Shown here piece after piece: positions 16,451-57,724 of a DNA stretch of 64,000 nt. Origin of the DNA: Pedobacter hartonius (lineage in GTDB: Bacteria; Bacteroidota; Bacteroidia; Sphingobacteriales; Sphingobacteriaceae); NCBI RefSeq assembly GCF_900107535.1, contig NZ_FNRA01000006.1, positions 124,001 through 188,000 of the forward strand, in the 5' to 3' direction. Below the pieces are notes generated by a model. It made no database searches and was not told the origin of the DNA. It worked only from the letters and a program-made list of their open reading frames with translations. The position numbers and the translations under genes are program-made. The first letter of the stretch is position 1; every line of letters begins with the position of its first letter.

Positions 16451-18229
16451 ATGCCCCAAACGATAACAAGAGTATTTGATCTGCTCAAATATAATTTAGA
16501 AAAGTATCCCAAAGACGAATTTATCAGCGGTAAGATCAAGGGAGTGTGGAAGAAATACAGCACCCGGCAATTTTGCGATACAGTAGATAATCTCAGCAGA
16601 GGCCTGATCAGGCTGGGAGCGGGGAAGGGCTCCAGAATTGCGGTGATGTCTCACAACAGGCCCGAGTGGAACATTACGGATTTTGCAATTATCCAGATTG
16701 GGGCTTACCAGATTCCGCTTTATCCTACATTGCCCGAGCATGATATTAAGTTTATACTGGAAGATGCGGAGGTAAGTATCCTGTTTGTTTCTGATGATGC
16801 TTTGTATCAGAAGGTCTGGTCGGTGATGCAAACAATGAATTCCGGTATTAAGCTTTACACTTTCGAAGAAATCACTAACGCCGTTAACTGGATGGATGTG
16901 GTGAACGATGGTGCAGCAAATACAGCAACTGACCTTGAACCTTATCGCCTTGCTATAGATCCGCAGGATATACTGACATTAATTTATACCTCCGGAACTA
17001 CCGGCACACCAAAAGGCGTGATGTTAACCCATAATAACCTGATCATGAATTTTAAGAGCGGAGCGGTTTTAATTCCTAAAGAGGTTAAAAAAGGGCTGAG
17101 CTTTTTGCCATTATGCCATGTGTATGAACGCATGATTATCTACATGTATATCTACAGGGATGTTTCGGTATACTATGCGGAAAGTATGGAAACGATTGTT
17201 GCGGATATCCAGTTTGTGAAACCCCATATTTTTTGTACAGTACCCCGGCTGCTTGAAAAAGTATATGATAGGATCATTGAGAAAGGTAAGGCACTTACGG
17301 GGATAAAAAAGCGTATTTTCTTTTGGGCGCTGGAGCTTGGAGAACAGTTTGAGCTCCAAAAAGACTGGTTATACCATTTCAAACTTGGAATCGCCAGAAA
17401 GCTGGTGTTCAGCAAATGGAAGGCTGCCCTTGGTGGTGAGATCGTTGTCATCGTATCAGGCGGAGCTGCGCTGAACCCGCGTTTAAACAGGATTTTCTGG
17501 GCAGCGGGAATGTGTGTGGTTGAGGGCTACGGATTAACTGAAACCTCCCCGGTGATCAGTTCCAATTACCTTGGCAAGATGATGTTTGGCACCGTCGGCC
17601 ATCCGCTGGAAGGTGTCGAGGTTAAGATCGCTGCCGATGGTGAAGTACTGACAAGAGGCCCGCATGTGATGAAAGGGTATTATAAAAGAGATGATCTTAC
17701 CGCTGAAACCATAGATACTGAAGGCTGGTTTCATACCGGTGATATCGGTGAACTGGTAGGGGACGGTTTTCTGAAAATTACAGACCGCAAAAAGGAGATC
17801 TTTAAAACCGCAGGCGGTAAATATATTGCACCGCAACTGCTGGAGAATAAATATAAAGAATCTGTACTGATCGAACAGATTATGGTACTTGGAGAAAACC
17901 GCAAGTTCCCGGCTGCATTGATTGTTCCTAATTTTGCTGCACTGAAATCATGGTGTGAGCATAAGGGGATGACATACACCACGAATGAAGAAATGCTGAA
18001 AGATCCGCAGGTGATTGAAAAATTTAATCAGGAGATTATCAATGGGTCAGTGGAGTTTGGTAAATGGGAGCAGGTGAAGCGGTTTGCATTGCTGAGTAAA
18101 GAGTGGAGCATTGAAGGCGGGGAATTTAGTCCTAAACTGAGCCTGAAGCGAAAAGTGATCTTAGAAAAGAACAAAGATGTGATTGAGAAATTGTATAAGG
18201 ATGCTGAAGATTATAAAGGTGTACACTGA
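16451..18229 (+). CDS. fadD: Long-chain fatty acid--CoA ligase (AMP-forming)
   Basis: A 592-residue member of the ANL adenylating superfamily. The P-loop-like motif LIYTSGTTGTPKGVMLTH is near residues 178-195, the A5 motif VEGYGLTETSPVIS near 357, and the hinge and A8 region GWFHTGDIGELVGDGFLKI followed by DRKKEIFKTAGGKYIAP near 430-460. These residues bind ATP and activate a fatty acid to an acyl-adenylate, then to acyl-CoA. The sequence is of the FadD15/long-chain synthetase type found widely in Bacteroidota. It stands alone on the plus strand with its own terminator, 2.5 kb upstream of the beta-oxidation operon that would consume its product. The precise chain-length preference is not predictable. 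Confidence 0.92.
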   Translation: MPQTITRVFDLLKYNLEKYPKDEFISGKIKGVWKKYSTRQFCDTVDNLSRGLIRLGAGKGSRIAVMSHNRPEWNITDFAIIQIGAYQIPLYPTLPEHDIKFILEDAEVSILFVSDDALYQKVWSVMQTMNSGIKLYTFEEITNAVNWMDVVNDGAANTATDLEPYRLAIDPQDILTLIYTSGTTGTPKGVMLTHNNLIMNFKSGAVLIPKEVKKGLSFLPLCHVYERMIIYMYIYRDVSVYYAESMETIVADIQFVKPHIFCTVPRLLEKVYDRIIEKGKALTGIKKRIFFWALELGEQFELQKDWLYHFKLGIARKLVFSKWKAALGGEIVVIVSGGAALNPRLNRIFWAAGMCVVEGYGLTETSPVISSNYLGKMMFGTVGHPLEGVEVKIAADGEVLTRGPHVMKGYYKRDDLTAETIDTEGWFHTGDIGELVGDGFLKITDRKKEIFKTAGGKYIAPQLLENKYKESVLIEQIMVLGENRKFPAALIVPNFAALKSWCEHKGMTYTTNEEMLKDPQVIEKFNQEIINGSVEFGKWEQVKRFALLSKEWSIEGGEFSPKLSLKRKVILEKNKDVIEKLYKDAEDYKGVH

Positions 18230-18283: not shown

Positions 18284-18325
18284 AAAATATGGGAGGTCAT
18301 GAGAAATGGCCTCCCATATTTTTTT
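18284..18325 (+). terminator. Rho-independent terminator after the acyl-CoA synthetase gene
   Basis: A 13-bp stem (18284-18296 with 18310-18322, core ATATGGGAGG/CCTCCCATAT) runs into a T tract, 55 bp after the stop codon. Confidence 0.85.
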
Positions 18326-18380
18326 GCGCTTTTTTCTAACTAAACCCTGGATTGGCCCTGATGAAGTTCTGAAATGGCTG

Positions 18381-18578
18381 TAGATAAAAGCATATTAAAA
18401 CTATAATGAGCGTATATTGAAACTATCTTCAATAAACCTTTTATAAGCTTTTAATAAGCAGTTGATAAGGTAAATTTGCTTACCGAAGCCTTATCAACCC
18501 CTTACCAAAACCTTATCATTGCCTTATCAGTAATACGTTCAATATAGCTTCAATATACGTTTAATATGTGTTTATCTA
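18381..18578. repeat. About 200-bp inverted-arm array of ~11-nt degenerate repeats
   Basis: The outer arms are near-perfect inverted copies (18381-18399 with 18560-18578, 17 of 19 positions). Further in, CGTATATTGAA at 18411-18421 pairs with its complement at 18549-18559, and GTTGATAAGG at 18461-18470 pairs with CCTTATCAAC at 18489-18498. Each half is itself a run of roughly 11-nt units, for example TTCAATATAGC, TTCAATATACG, TTTAATATGTG on the right and CTTTTATAAG, CTTTTAATAAG, CAGTTGATAAG on the left. No gene is present. It may be a non-autonomous mobile remnant, a protein-binding array phased with the helix, or a long RNA hairpin; none can be decided from sequence. Confidence 0.75.
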
Positions 18579-18605: not shown

Positions 18606-18647
18606 GACCAACAGGTAATCCGGCTGCAGCCGGATTACCTGTTGGTC
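18606..18647. repeat. Perfect 42-bp palindrome
   Basis: Every base of 18606-18626 pairs with 18627-18647; the centre is CCGGCTGCAGCCGG and the ends are GACCAACAGG/CCTGTTGGTC. It is far more G+C-rich than the flanking DNA. No T run follows on either strand, so it is not a canonical terminator. It could form a 21-bp hairpin in RNA or a cruciform in DNA, or be a binding site for a dimeric protein. Confidence 0.9.
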
Positions 18648-18819: not shown

Positions 18820-20154
18820 ATGAAACAAAAACTATTTAAATGTCTGCCGGTAGCCTTGGCTGCCCTATTTGTTGGCGGTGCTGCGCAAGCACAAACACAA
18901 ACGCCAGCGGGTACTTCTGCTGTTCAGCAGTTCAGCACCTGGTCTGTCGGTGTAAATGCGGGAGTGCTTTCTCCTATCTCTCCGCTTGGCGGGAAGAATG
19001 ACTTCTCAAACTGGAAGTCAAGTTTGGGTTATGGTCTGTTCATCAAAAAACAATTCACTCCGTATTTCTCCCTGAAACTGGACGGAATAAGAGGTAAATT
19101 AAAAGGTGATAACGCCGAAGCTTTTGACAGTGGTGCAACGATCACTGACGGAAATAGTGCTTATGAAACTGATCTTTCTTATGCAGGAACATTAAGTGCA
19201 CAGGTGAATATGTTCAATATTGATCTGTTCAAAAAACAAGATGTTTTACAACTGTATGTATCGGCAGGTGCTGGTTTAGCAGGTTACAAACCTACAATTA
19301 CATCAAGCGGAGGCGTTACTTCAGATTATGCAGATGGTAAAACGATCAGTGAACTGGTAATCCCGGTTGGAATTGGTGCTAAATTCAGAGTTTCTGAAAG
19401 AATCAACTTTGATTTAGGATGGTCAGTTTATTTTGTTGATGGTGATAATCTTGATGGTACTTACCGTAACAATAACAGTGACAGGTTCAATTATGCACAC
19501 GCAGGTTTAGAATTTGCTTTGGGTAAAGGGCCACAACTGGCTTATTACAACCCGGTAGCAGCAAGTTACGACGAAGCTGTACAGGCTAAACAACTGGCCG
19601 GTTCACTGAAAAGTGATTTAGACAATCAAAAAGCTGAAAACGCTAAATTGAGATCTGACATGGAAGATCTGTTGAAAGATACAGATGGTGACGGTGTTGC
19701 TGATAAACTGGATAAATGTCCTGGAACTCCATCAGGTACTGTAGTTGACGGAGCCGGATGTCCTTTAGTTACGCCTAAACCTGTTGAAAAAGTAATTATT
19801 ACTGAAGAAGACAGACGTGTGGTTAGGGATGCCATCAGGAACTTAGAATTTGATCTTGGTAAATCTACGATCAGGTCTAAATCTTATCCAACGTTAAACC
19901 GTGTTGCCAACCTGCTGGTAACTAAAAACTTTAGCCTGAAACTGGCTGGTCATACAGATAACACAGGTTCAGCAGAACTGAACATGAGATTATCTAAAGA
20001 CAGAGCTGAGTCAGTTAAAGCTTACCTGGTTTCTCAGGGTGTAAATGCATCGAGGGTTGAAGCTACAGGTTATGGTTTGACACAACCGATTGCATCAAAC
20101 AAAACTGCAGCCGGACGTCAGAAAAACAGACGTGTAGAGTTTACGCTTTACTAG
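18820..20154 (+). CDS. OmpA family outer-membrane protein with TSP3 calcium-binding-like repeat
   Basis: A 444-residue protein with a signal peptide ending near GGAAQAQ (residue 25). An N-terminal beta-barrel spans residues about 40-235 (WSVGVNAGVLSPISP onward). A short coiled stretch follows (VQAKQLAGSLKSDLDNQKAE), then a thrombospondin type 3-like segment DTDGDGVADKLDKCPGTP, and a C-terminal OmpA domain (LEFDLGKSTIRSKSYPTL; LAGHTDNTGSAELNMRLS). The OmpA domain should bind peptidoglycan and tie the outer membrane to the wall. It is the major-porin type abundant in Sphingobacteriaceae. It stands alone, preceded by the repeat-rich gap and followed by a strong terminator. Confidence 0.93.
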   Translation: MKQKLFKCLPVALAALFVGGAAQAQTQTPAGTSAVQQFSTWSVGVNAGVLSPISPLGGKNDFSNWKSSLGYGLFIKKQFTPYFSLKLDGIRGKLKGDNAEAFDSGATITDGNSAYETDLSYAGTLSAQVNMFNIDLFKKQDVLQLYVSAGAGLAGYKPTITSSGGVTSDYADGKTISELVIPVGIGAKFRVSERINFDLGWSVYFVDGDNLDGTYRNNNSDRFNYAHAGLEFALGKGPQLAYYNPVAASYDEAVQAKQLAGSLKSDLDNQKAENAKLRSDMEDLLKDTDGDGVADKLDKCPGTPSGTVVDGAGCPLVTPKPVEKVIITEEDRRVVRDAIRNLEFDLGKSTIRSKSYPTLNRVANLLVTKNFSLKLAGHTDNTGSAELNMRLSKDRAESVKAYLVSQGVNASRVEATGYGLTQPIASNKTAAGRQKNRRVEFTLY

Positions 20155-44486: not shown

Positions 44487-44564
44487 AAAAAACAGCGTAC
44501 TGTATTGATGCTGCCTGCCGCTGAAGCGCGTCAGAAGGTATCAATACAGTACGCTGTTTTTTTT
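44487..44564. terminator. Strong bidirectional terminator with a 23-bp perfect stem
   Basis: 44487-44509 pairs perfectly with 44540-44562 (core CAGCGTACTGTATTGAT); the left arm starts with six A and the right ends in a T run. It lies between convergent genes lpd and the metallohydrolase candidate and can stop transcription from both sides. Confidence 0.88.
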
Positions 44565-56665: not shown

Positions 56666-56739
56666 TCCTTCTTAGCTCAGCTGGTTAGAGCATCTGACTG
56701 TTAATCAGAGGGTCGCTGGTTCGAGCCCAGCAGAGGGAG
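56666..56739 (+). tRNA. tRNA-Asn (anticodon GTT), copy 1
   Basis: A 74-nt cloverleaf: acceptor TCCTTCT/AGAGGGA with one G-T pair, D-arm TAGCTCAGCTGGTTAGAGC, anticodon stem TCTGA/TCAGA around CTGTTAA (anticodon GTT), T-arm with GGTTCGAGCCC, discriminator G. CCA is not encoded in full (GCA follows). A hairpin terminator follows 7 bp later. Confidence 0.95.
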
Positions 56740-57041: not shown

Positions 57042-57115
57042 TCCTTCTTAGCTCAGCTGGTTAGAGCATCTGACTGTTAATCAGAGGGTCGCTGGTTCGA
57101 GCCCAGCAGAGGGAG
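57042..57115 (+). tRNA. tRNA-Asn (anticodon GTT), copy 2
   Basis: 74 nt, identical in sequence to copy 1 over the whole cloverleaf, with the same anticodon loop CTGTTAA. The downstream flank (GCAAAGATTTTT) differs from copy 1 (GCAGATTGAA). Its 3' half is repeated at 59406-59447, which makes it the probable left end of the AbiE islet. Confidence 0.95.
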
Positions 57116-57179: not shown

Positions 57180-57621
57180 ATTTCTATAATAGAAAGTTTC
57201 CTACTCTATTTTGTCTTTTCAATAGCCAAGTAAAGAGCGCATTGGATTATTCGATGTCACGGTTTGAGATGCATATTGACACTGATTTTGCTGATGGCGT
57301 CTGTTAAAGCAGAGGCTCCTCTTACCTTAGCAGGCCAGTTATTGCAATTCCAGTTCTGCATAGTAGTGTAATATCCGTGTGGCTATAAGGACTGATTGCA
57401 GCACTACAACAAAGACTAATTTTAGCACATCAATAAAAACTAGTTTTATCCCGCATATATTAGAATTAACTAATGGTGAGATGTTATAAATACGTCAGTT
57501 TGGATAAGGAGAAATCGCAACTGCGTTATGATCTCTCTTAATACTTTGGAGTTTCAATTGTATTCGAAAGAACATAGAATAGCTTCTATCTTTTAATTCA
57601 ATGCTCCTGTTGAAATAACAT
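57180..57621. other. Non-coding stretch upstream of abiE
   Basis: About 440 bp with no credible gene. The only structure noticed is a set of three degenerate ~24-nt units at 57388-57458, described separately. Confidence 0.55.
57388..57458. repeat. Three degenerate ~24-nt tandem units
   Basis: The units start AGGACTGATTGCAGCAC (57388), AGACTAATTTTAGCAC (57413) and AAACTAGTTTTATCCC (57437). They share the pattern A-x-ACT-A/G-x-TTx-A-x-C and a 24-25-nt spacing. They may be protein-binding half sites or chance in A+T-rich DNA. Confidence 0.35.
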
Positions 57622-57650
57622 AAGATAAACGAGTATTATCCGTTTATCTT
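57622..57650. promoter_or_regulatory. AbiEi operator candidate, upstream inverted repeat (IR1)
   Basis: AAGATAAACG (57622-57631) and CGTTTATCTT (57641-57650) are perfect 10-bp arms with a 9-bp spacer. The same arms and spacer length recur at 57694-57722. It lies just upstream of the -33 box. Confidence 0.75.
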
Positions 57651-57658
57651 GTTGAAAT

Positions 57659-57689
57659 TTTGCATATTTAAATGATTTATGTATTTTTG
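57659..57689 (+). promoter_or_regulatory. abiE promoter (TTTG-N19-TATTTTTG)
   Basis: TTTG at 57659-57662 and TATTTTTG at 57682-57689 with exactly 19 bp between them: a full match to the Bacteroidota consensus. It is flanked on both sides by identical-arm inverted repeats. Confidence 0.8.
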
Positions 57690-57691
57690 AT

Positions 57692-57724
57692 ATAAGATAA
57701 ACGAAATTAAACCGTTTATCTTAT
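57692..57724. promoter_or_regulatory. AbiEi operator candidate, downstream inverted repeat (IR2)
   Basis: ATAAGATAAACG (57692-57703) and CGTTTATCTTAT (57713-57724) are 12-bp arms with a 9-bp spacer, covering the expected transcription start. Its inner 10-bp arms are identical to IR1; centre-to-centre distance is 72 bp. Confidence 0.8.

Follow-up and report, generated by a model that had tools for sequence, protein, structure and literature searches.

The 198-nt element described here belongs to a previously undescribed class of inverted arrays, built from 11-nt units in two mirror-image halves, whose home position we place upstream of clade-I genes of the DUF6266 family (PF19781) in Pedobacter-like bacteria. 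The copy in the window (the whole 64,000-nt stretch analysed, positions 124001–188000 of contig C20 in the 5.19-Mb genome G000) is, judged by its unit and its architecture, an orphan member of this class. We lean, tentatively, towards reading it as a DNA array that offers multiple recognition sites to a DUF6266-linked factor, acting by a mechanism that we infer below. No paper on such arrays was found in the open literature searched, and we hold the class to be new since no family with this repeat architecture and partner is known from the libraries and open papers searched.

Architecture of the array in the window

As the first-pass annotation had stated, the array is free of genes; its neighbours are an AMP-ligase gene on the left and an OmpA-family gene on the right (Table 1). 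Each arm comprises about four outer units of the ATATTGAAACT type and about four inner units of the GGnnTTGATAA type. The two arms (18381–18470 and 18489–18578) are complementary at 72% of positions over 90 nt, without gaps, around an 18-nt centre. A recount of the outermost 19 nt again gave 17 inverted matches, and the other figures of the first-pass annotation are likewise confirmed. The units of ~11 nt seen by eye in both halves are equally clear in the statistics. The self-match of the array is 0.57 at lag 11 and 0.47 at lag 22, where every remaining lag between 5 and 30 gives 0.22–0.32, and its lag-11 segment score of 31 is far beyond that of dinucleotide shuffles, where the best score over all lags had a mean of 8.2 and a maximum of 16 (n = 500). 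The inverted-repeat score is 40 (dinucleotide shuffles: mean 9.9, maximum 15, n = 300). Watson–Crick pairing is 0.68 in register, higher than when the arms are shifted by one unit (0.57) or by unrelated distances (mean 0.29), and the mirror symmetry is thus more than a by-product of the repeats. The mismatched pairs of the left outer block fall at offsets 8–9, 19–20, 30–31 and 41–42. A single-phase test of the hairpin mismatches was negative for the array, since the outer and inner blocks are mutually out of phase. When mismatch distances were pooled, z reached only 1.2 at a distance of 11.

Table 1 Features of the array in the window and of its surroundings
Feature	Position	Strand	Composition or context	Basis
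Long-chain-fatty-acid AMP-ligase-like gene (PF00501)	16451..18229	+	Conserved within the genus, where it lacks the array	
Terminator-like hairpin and T run	18286..18326	+	3' of the AMP-ligase gene	Sequence, fold
Whole inverted array	18381..18578	.	18 units of 11 nt, 9 per arm	
Left arm, outer block	18381..18424	+	4 units, ATATTGAAACT type	Unit table, mismatch-pair offsets
Left arm, inner block	18425..18468	+	4 units, nnnnTTnATAA type	Unit table
Centre	18469..18488	.	Left-arm end plus apical region of 18 nt	Inter-arm gap, fold
Right arm, inner block	18489..18534	-	CCTTATCAAnn units, the reverse complement of the left inner block	
Right arm, outer block	18535..18578	-	4 units	
OmpA-family gene	18820..20154	+	Upstream block AACTTGGTACAGATATTGC kept in relatives without the array	

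The array is not the transcription terminator of the AMP-ligase gene, since that gene already has its own terminator-like hairpin and T run 5' of the array. Neither the plasmid collection nor Rfam, the latter searched with the whole window at gathering thresholds, gave a match, except for two tRNAs in Rfam; these genes (56666–56739 and 57042–57115) have identical scores and are ~300 nt apart. The window holds several other inverted repeats. A perfect palindrome, GACCAACAGGTAATCCGGCTGCAGCCGGATTACCTGTTGGTC, lies at 18606–18647, 28 nt past the array, and a second full copy is absent from the 456 kb of DNA of this genome that were checked. A hairpin, AAAAAACAGCGTACTGTATTGATGC..., occupies 44487–44562; contig C18 of the same genome has further A-run hairpins of this kind, built around a GTACTGTATCGATGC-like core, which are a possible separate REP-like family. 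At 57620–57724, before a gene at ~57746, two nested inverted repeats with AAGATAAACG/CGTTTATCTT arms have an operator-like appearance.

Arrays elsewhere and the level at which they may be read

A second copy of the window array was found in the same genome at C18:125935–126124, and in a pattern search several other genomes of the genus proved to have 11-nt arrays, built from different units. When 84,980 species were scanned for exact matches, 70 loci were obtained, 43 of them in Bacteroidota. A match in G009, inside a SusD-type gene, was dismissed as chance. The first-pass annotation had proposed looking for copies elsewhere, and arrays are indeed present in the same genome, in the genus and in other Bacteroidota, with the 11-nt period and the inverted symmetry as a family trait. 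The lag was surveyed over 856 kb from two genomes of the genus, comprising the window and the contig that carries the second copy, together with 400 kb from a relative. Among intergenic self-match segments at lags 5–40, lag 11 was the most frequent (15 segments), followed by lag 22 with 10, and no other lag had more than 5. All of the longest inverted repeats, with arms of >60 nt, have strongly 11-nt-periodic arms whose sequences are locus-specific, whereas the shorter, terminator-like inverted repeats have no such periodicity. As a further point against a terminator role, none of the nine clear arrays of the survey lies between convergent genes; one orphan array of Bacteroides heparinolyticus does.

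The arrays of the window, of C18 and of G018 align over 198 columns without a gap, and the columns that do not vary have a period of 11 (p = 0.015). Both halves thus carry a sequence core at every 11 nt, and these cores are kept as the spacers drift; the pairing of the arms is retained because the cores are (72.6% of positions, against 31–43% when the arms are slid). This pattern of conserved cores and variable spacers fits one of the two readings offered at first, that of repeated protein contacts. The other was a structured RNA, which we consider here as a long hairpin of A-form helix, 11 bp to the turn, that would belong to a 5' UTR or be a small RNA. The very stable fold of the window array (−55 kcal/mol, z = −6.7), the 11-bp pitch of A-form RNA and the lack of indels, with arms in register throughout 198 nt, would all agree with it. 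Covariation did not support it: 7 compensatory changes were counted where 5.5 were expected, as many or more being seen in 112–142 of 500 shuffles (three sequences only), and 37 of the 90 pairs simply break. Moreover, it is the unit sequence and not pairing alone that tracks the protein clade, the promoter-like sites described below lie mostly between array and gene, and a match in Rfam is absent. We therefore regard a structured RNA as unlikely. The conserved cores without an excess of compensatory changes, together with the promoter-like sites downstream of most arrays, point to reading at the level of DNA and favour sequence recognition over a selected RNA helix, within the little power that three sequences give.

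Linkage of arrays to DUF6266 genes

Several arrays, including that of C18, were found immediately upstream of DUF6266 genes, a family with 23 members in this genome. The first-pass annotation had missed both this home position, in front of clade-I genes, and the orphan status of the window copy. Scoring up to 450 nt upstream of each gene, on the upstream side only, we found a lag-11 array at 19 of 53 DUF6266 genes, unsorted by clade and drawn from several members of the genus, against 17 of 593 control genes. A tree of 45 DUF6266 proteins separates into two clades, with arrays at 17/19 genes of clade I and 1/26 of clade II. When the set was enlarged by 37 loci (a few of them array loci already known), the counts became 40 of 52 for clade I and 1 of 30 for clade II. 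Clade-II genes often take the second place in a gene pair, and the fair comparison is therefore that of non-coding upstream regions only; here the arrays are found at 33 of 41 clade-I and none of 9 clade-II genes (Fisher p = 1e-5), six of the eight clade-I misses being near the threshold. A strong self-match is seen in 40 of the clade-I upstream regions at lag 11 and in 22 of them at lag 22; the remaining lags between 5 and 30 have 0–2 each. Sites of the promoter-like form TAnnTTTG are most frequent at −120 to −200 relative to the start codon, which places them downstream of most arrays; the signal is modest (19 sites overall, 11 expected). Arrays of other periods were also seen: four loci in front of DUF6266 genes from the other clade (L219, L221, L228 and L229) have 10-nt units of the GGTCAATTGC type rather than 11-nt ones, and the units at L223 and L234 are of 9 nt.

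Comparison of arrays with their proteins shows that the sequence of the unit tracks the DUF6266 phylogeny. The more distant two proteins are, the less alike are their arrays (Mantel r = −0.335, p = 0.0005), and the relationship holds when only pairs separated by more than 1.5 substitutions per site are taken (p = 0.0045), becoming non-significant beyond 2.0. By eye, TATACC-type cores mark one subfamily, in which arrays are found at 11 of 12 members, GGTTGATnnGG another and GGGTTTGnnACG a third. Orthologous arrays are only ~70% identical. The correlation would also be expected from mere co-inheritance of array and gene.

These observations bear on the idea that the arrays are a mutational by-product, made by inverted duplication, 11-nt slippage and arm-to-arm gene conversion with no factor to recognise them. 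Exchange between arms does happen, as the near-perfect hairpins of some arrays (L035/L114) and the flipped orientation of the loop between copies indicate. However, only lags 11 and 22 stand out, and slippage alone leaves unexplained both the restriction to one clade and the cores common to deeply diverged paralogues, which makes this origin improbable.

Orphan copies and their dispersal

We delimit the class by lag-11 periodicity in two inverted halves, together with either a place directly upstream of a clade-I DUF6266 gene or a unit in common with such an array in the same genome. The window array has the periodic inverted halves and belongs by the second alternative: its copy in C18 lies 53 nt upstream of the DUF6266 gene L206, and these two are the only arrays of this unit in the genome. 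Its best matches among DUF6266-linked arrays are those of L206 (score 50) and of the relatives of L206 in two other species, L272 (51) and L282 (42), where the median over all is 11. No DUF6266 gene or remnant was recognised within the window by tblastn, which gave weak hits only; the best intergenic hit (E = 0.003, 25% identity to a clade-II protein across the array) was considered as a degenerate gene and taken as chance. For three other stand-alone arrays, at 284 kb of C18 and at 29 kb and 80 kb of G019, none of the sampled DUF6266-linked arrays is a match.

The first-pass annotation had proposed to look both for copies in the genus and for conservation at the same intergenic site, and the outcome is split: copies in the genus exist, but the site is free of the array in G143, G141 and G019. 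Dispersal is evident in other genomes. In G019, an array family of the unit TTTGATACGGG is present at eight sites with mostly different flanks, one of them upstream of a DUF6266 pair, and the number of units varies between sites while being similar in both arms of each. The same genome carries ~25 copies of a dispersed repeat of ~900 bp (L242–L261), with the left end GGATCAAGTCAT, which contains an array and a degenerate reading frame. In B. heparinolyticus, which belongs to another order, an array lies upstream of both DUF6266 genes and ~9 orphans with the same unit have end sequences in common; a reversed control pattern gave no matches in this genome. In both G019 and B. heparinolyticus, then, similar arrays that differ in their number of units are dispersed over the genome, which shows that copying to new sites takes place, and the orphans look more like dispersed copies than like targets that evolved independently.

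Such copying makes a mobile repeat a strong rival and the main one, which we rate as possible but rather doubtful. The arrays would then be a dispersing palindromic repeat, MITE-like or REP-like, with the DUF6266-linked arrays as the source, orphans spread by an activity in trans and no function for the host; DUF6266 itself may be cargo or a component of the machinery. The varied flanks of the TTTGATACGGG family, the ~900-bp repeat, the alike ends of the B. heparinolyticus orphans and the empty window site all speak for it. On the other side, neither a target-site duplication nor a consistent end was found (at the window site no duplication was recognised, the flanks being too diverged from the empty site), DUF6266 has no transposase fold, and only two copies of the window unit are present in its own genome. 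Compared with the terminal inverted repeats of a MITE, the element in the window is an inverted repeat as a whole. Hitchhiking, furthermore, needs less than the tight, clade-specific upstream placement that is seen.

The DUF6266 protein

The AlphaFold model of DUF6266 (pLDDT 93) predicts a fibronectin-III-like (FN3-like) C-terminal domain with a small N-terminal sheet and helices. No DNA-binding protein was among the fold matches found for the model, which has no transposase fold, and the open literature searched does not mention the family. Arrays in more distant genomes have other neighbours. In Paludibacteraceae/Bacteroidales MAGs, arrays of the unit ACTTATCACGC (L055:7256–7687, L057:4222–4650 and L074:816–1187) precede by 56–120 nt a conserved 144-aa protein that has no match in Pfam, and the unit recurs at many other sites; homology of this protein to DUF6266 was unsupported. 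A Paludibacter array (L044:3920–4726) is 277 nt upstream of a 269-aa protein, for which an hhalign probability of 46 is only suggestive of a distant DUF6266 relative. Searches of PHROGs and NCBIfam gave no family.

A possible mechanism and its meaning

In the recognition reading that we tentatively prefer, the array would be read as double-stranded DNA. Each 11-nt unit would offer one contact and the next would lie about one helical turn on, on the same face, in two mirror-image halves. The reader would be a sequence-specific factor co-evolving with the array, either DUF6266 itself or a co-inherited partner. The home array would control the DUF6266 gene from upstream of its promoter, and orphans, including the window copy, would have arisen by copying and serve as secondary targets or decoys. 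DUF6266 is the obvious candidate for the reader; a co-inherited partner, or an activity that spreads the repeat, may take its place.

More broadly, clade-I DUF6266 and the inverted 11-nt arrays could together be a new system of Bacteroidota that recognises or spreads arrays. Each of the many FN3-fold paralogues in a genome would then have a DNA array of its own, unlike the others, along with the orphans of that array; we put this forward as a possibility about which we have considerable doubt. The arrays would be the first cis partner for an uncharacterised multi-copy family and would provide a testable code, with many natural protein/array pairs of different motifs within one genome. If DUF6266 or its partner reads the array, this would be a new recognition system, and if the array spreads through DUF6266, it would be a repeat-propagating element of a kind not seen before and distinct from RAYT; with an ordinary regulator in that role, the system would fall within a known kind, as a variant.

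Comparison with known systems

Two repeats known from Bacteroidota share some of these features. BrickBuilt, a minisatellite-MITE of Porphyromonas gingivalis, is likewise intergenic and dispersed, with tandem units and inverted-repeat ends, but has a 23-nt unit, a single sequence family in one species and no partner protein (PMC4596501). The TAACTGA heptamer repeats, some of which are in Bacteroidota, are also short, direct and intergenic but have a 7-nt unit without spacer, a single conserved motif, no inverted halves and no partner gene (PMC4679880); the window array, differing in unit and period, was not assigned to them.

Centromeres of ParMRC systems resemble the arrays in genomic organisation. 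They are arrays of short direct repeats upstream of an operon, with family-specific cognate recognition and autoregulation; R1 parC has 11-bp repeats and ParMRC families are described in C. perfringens (PMC9426499). The arrays here are, in contrast, chromosomal, have mirror-image halves and are partnered by DUF6266. ParM and ParR were not among the neighbours read at 14 arrays, nor in Pfam scans of the genes flanking the window array and of the DUF6266 proteins.

The organisation is likewise that of REP/RAYT, in which a protein gene has its own adjacent palindromic repeat, co-evolving with the protein clade, and orphans are dispersed (PMC2817692). Here too the repeat type varies with the protein, as the Mantel test indicates, and orphan copies are dispersed. 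REPs, however, are single palindromes of 20–40 bp with GTAG/CGTC heads that flank the gene on both sides, and RAYTs are HUH nucleases (PMC2817692). The arrays described here consist of 60–200 nt of 11-nt units (198 nt in the window), lie upstream, the only side scored, and are linked to DUF6266, with its predicted FN3-like fold. The view of the first-pass annotation that no standard element has this form is supported, and we file the class under neither REP/RAYT nor ParR/parC since its components differ from both where tested.
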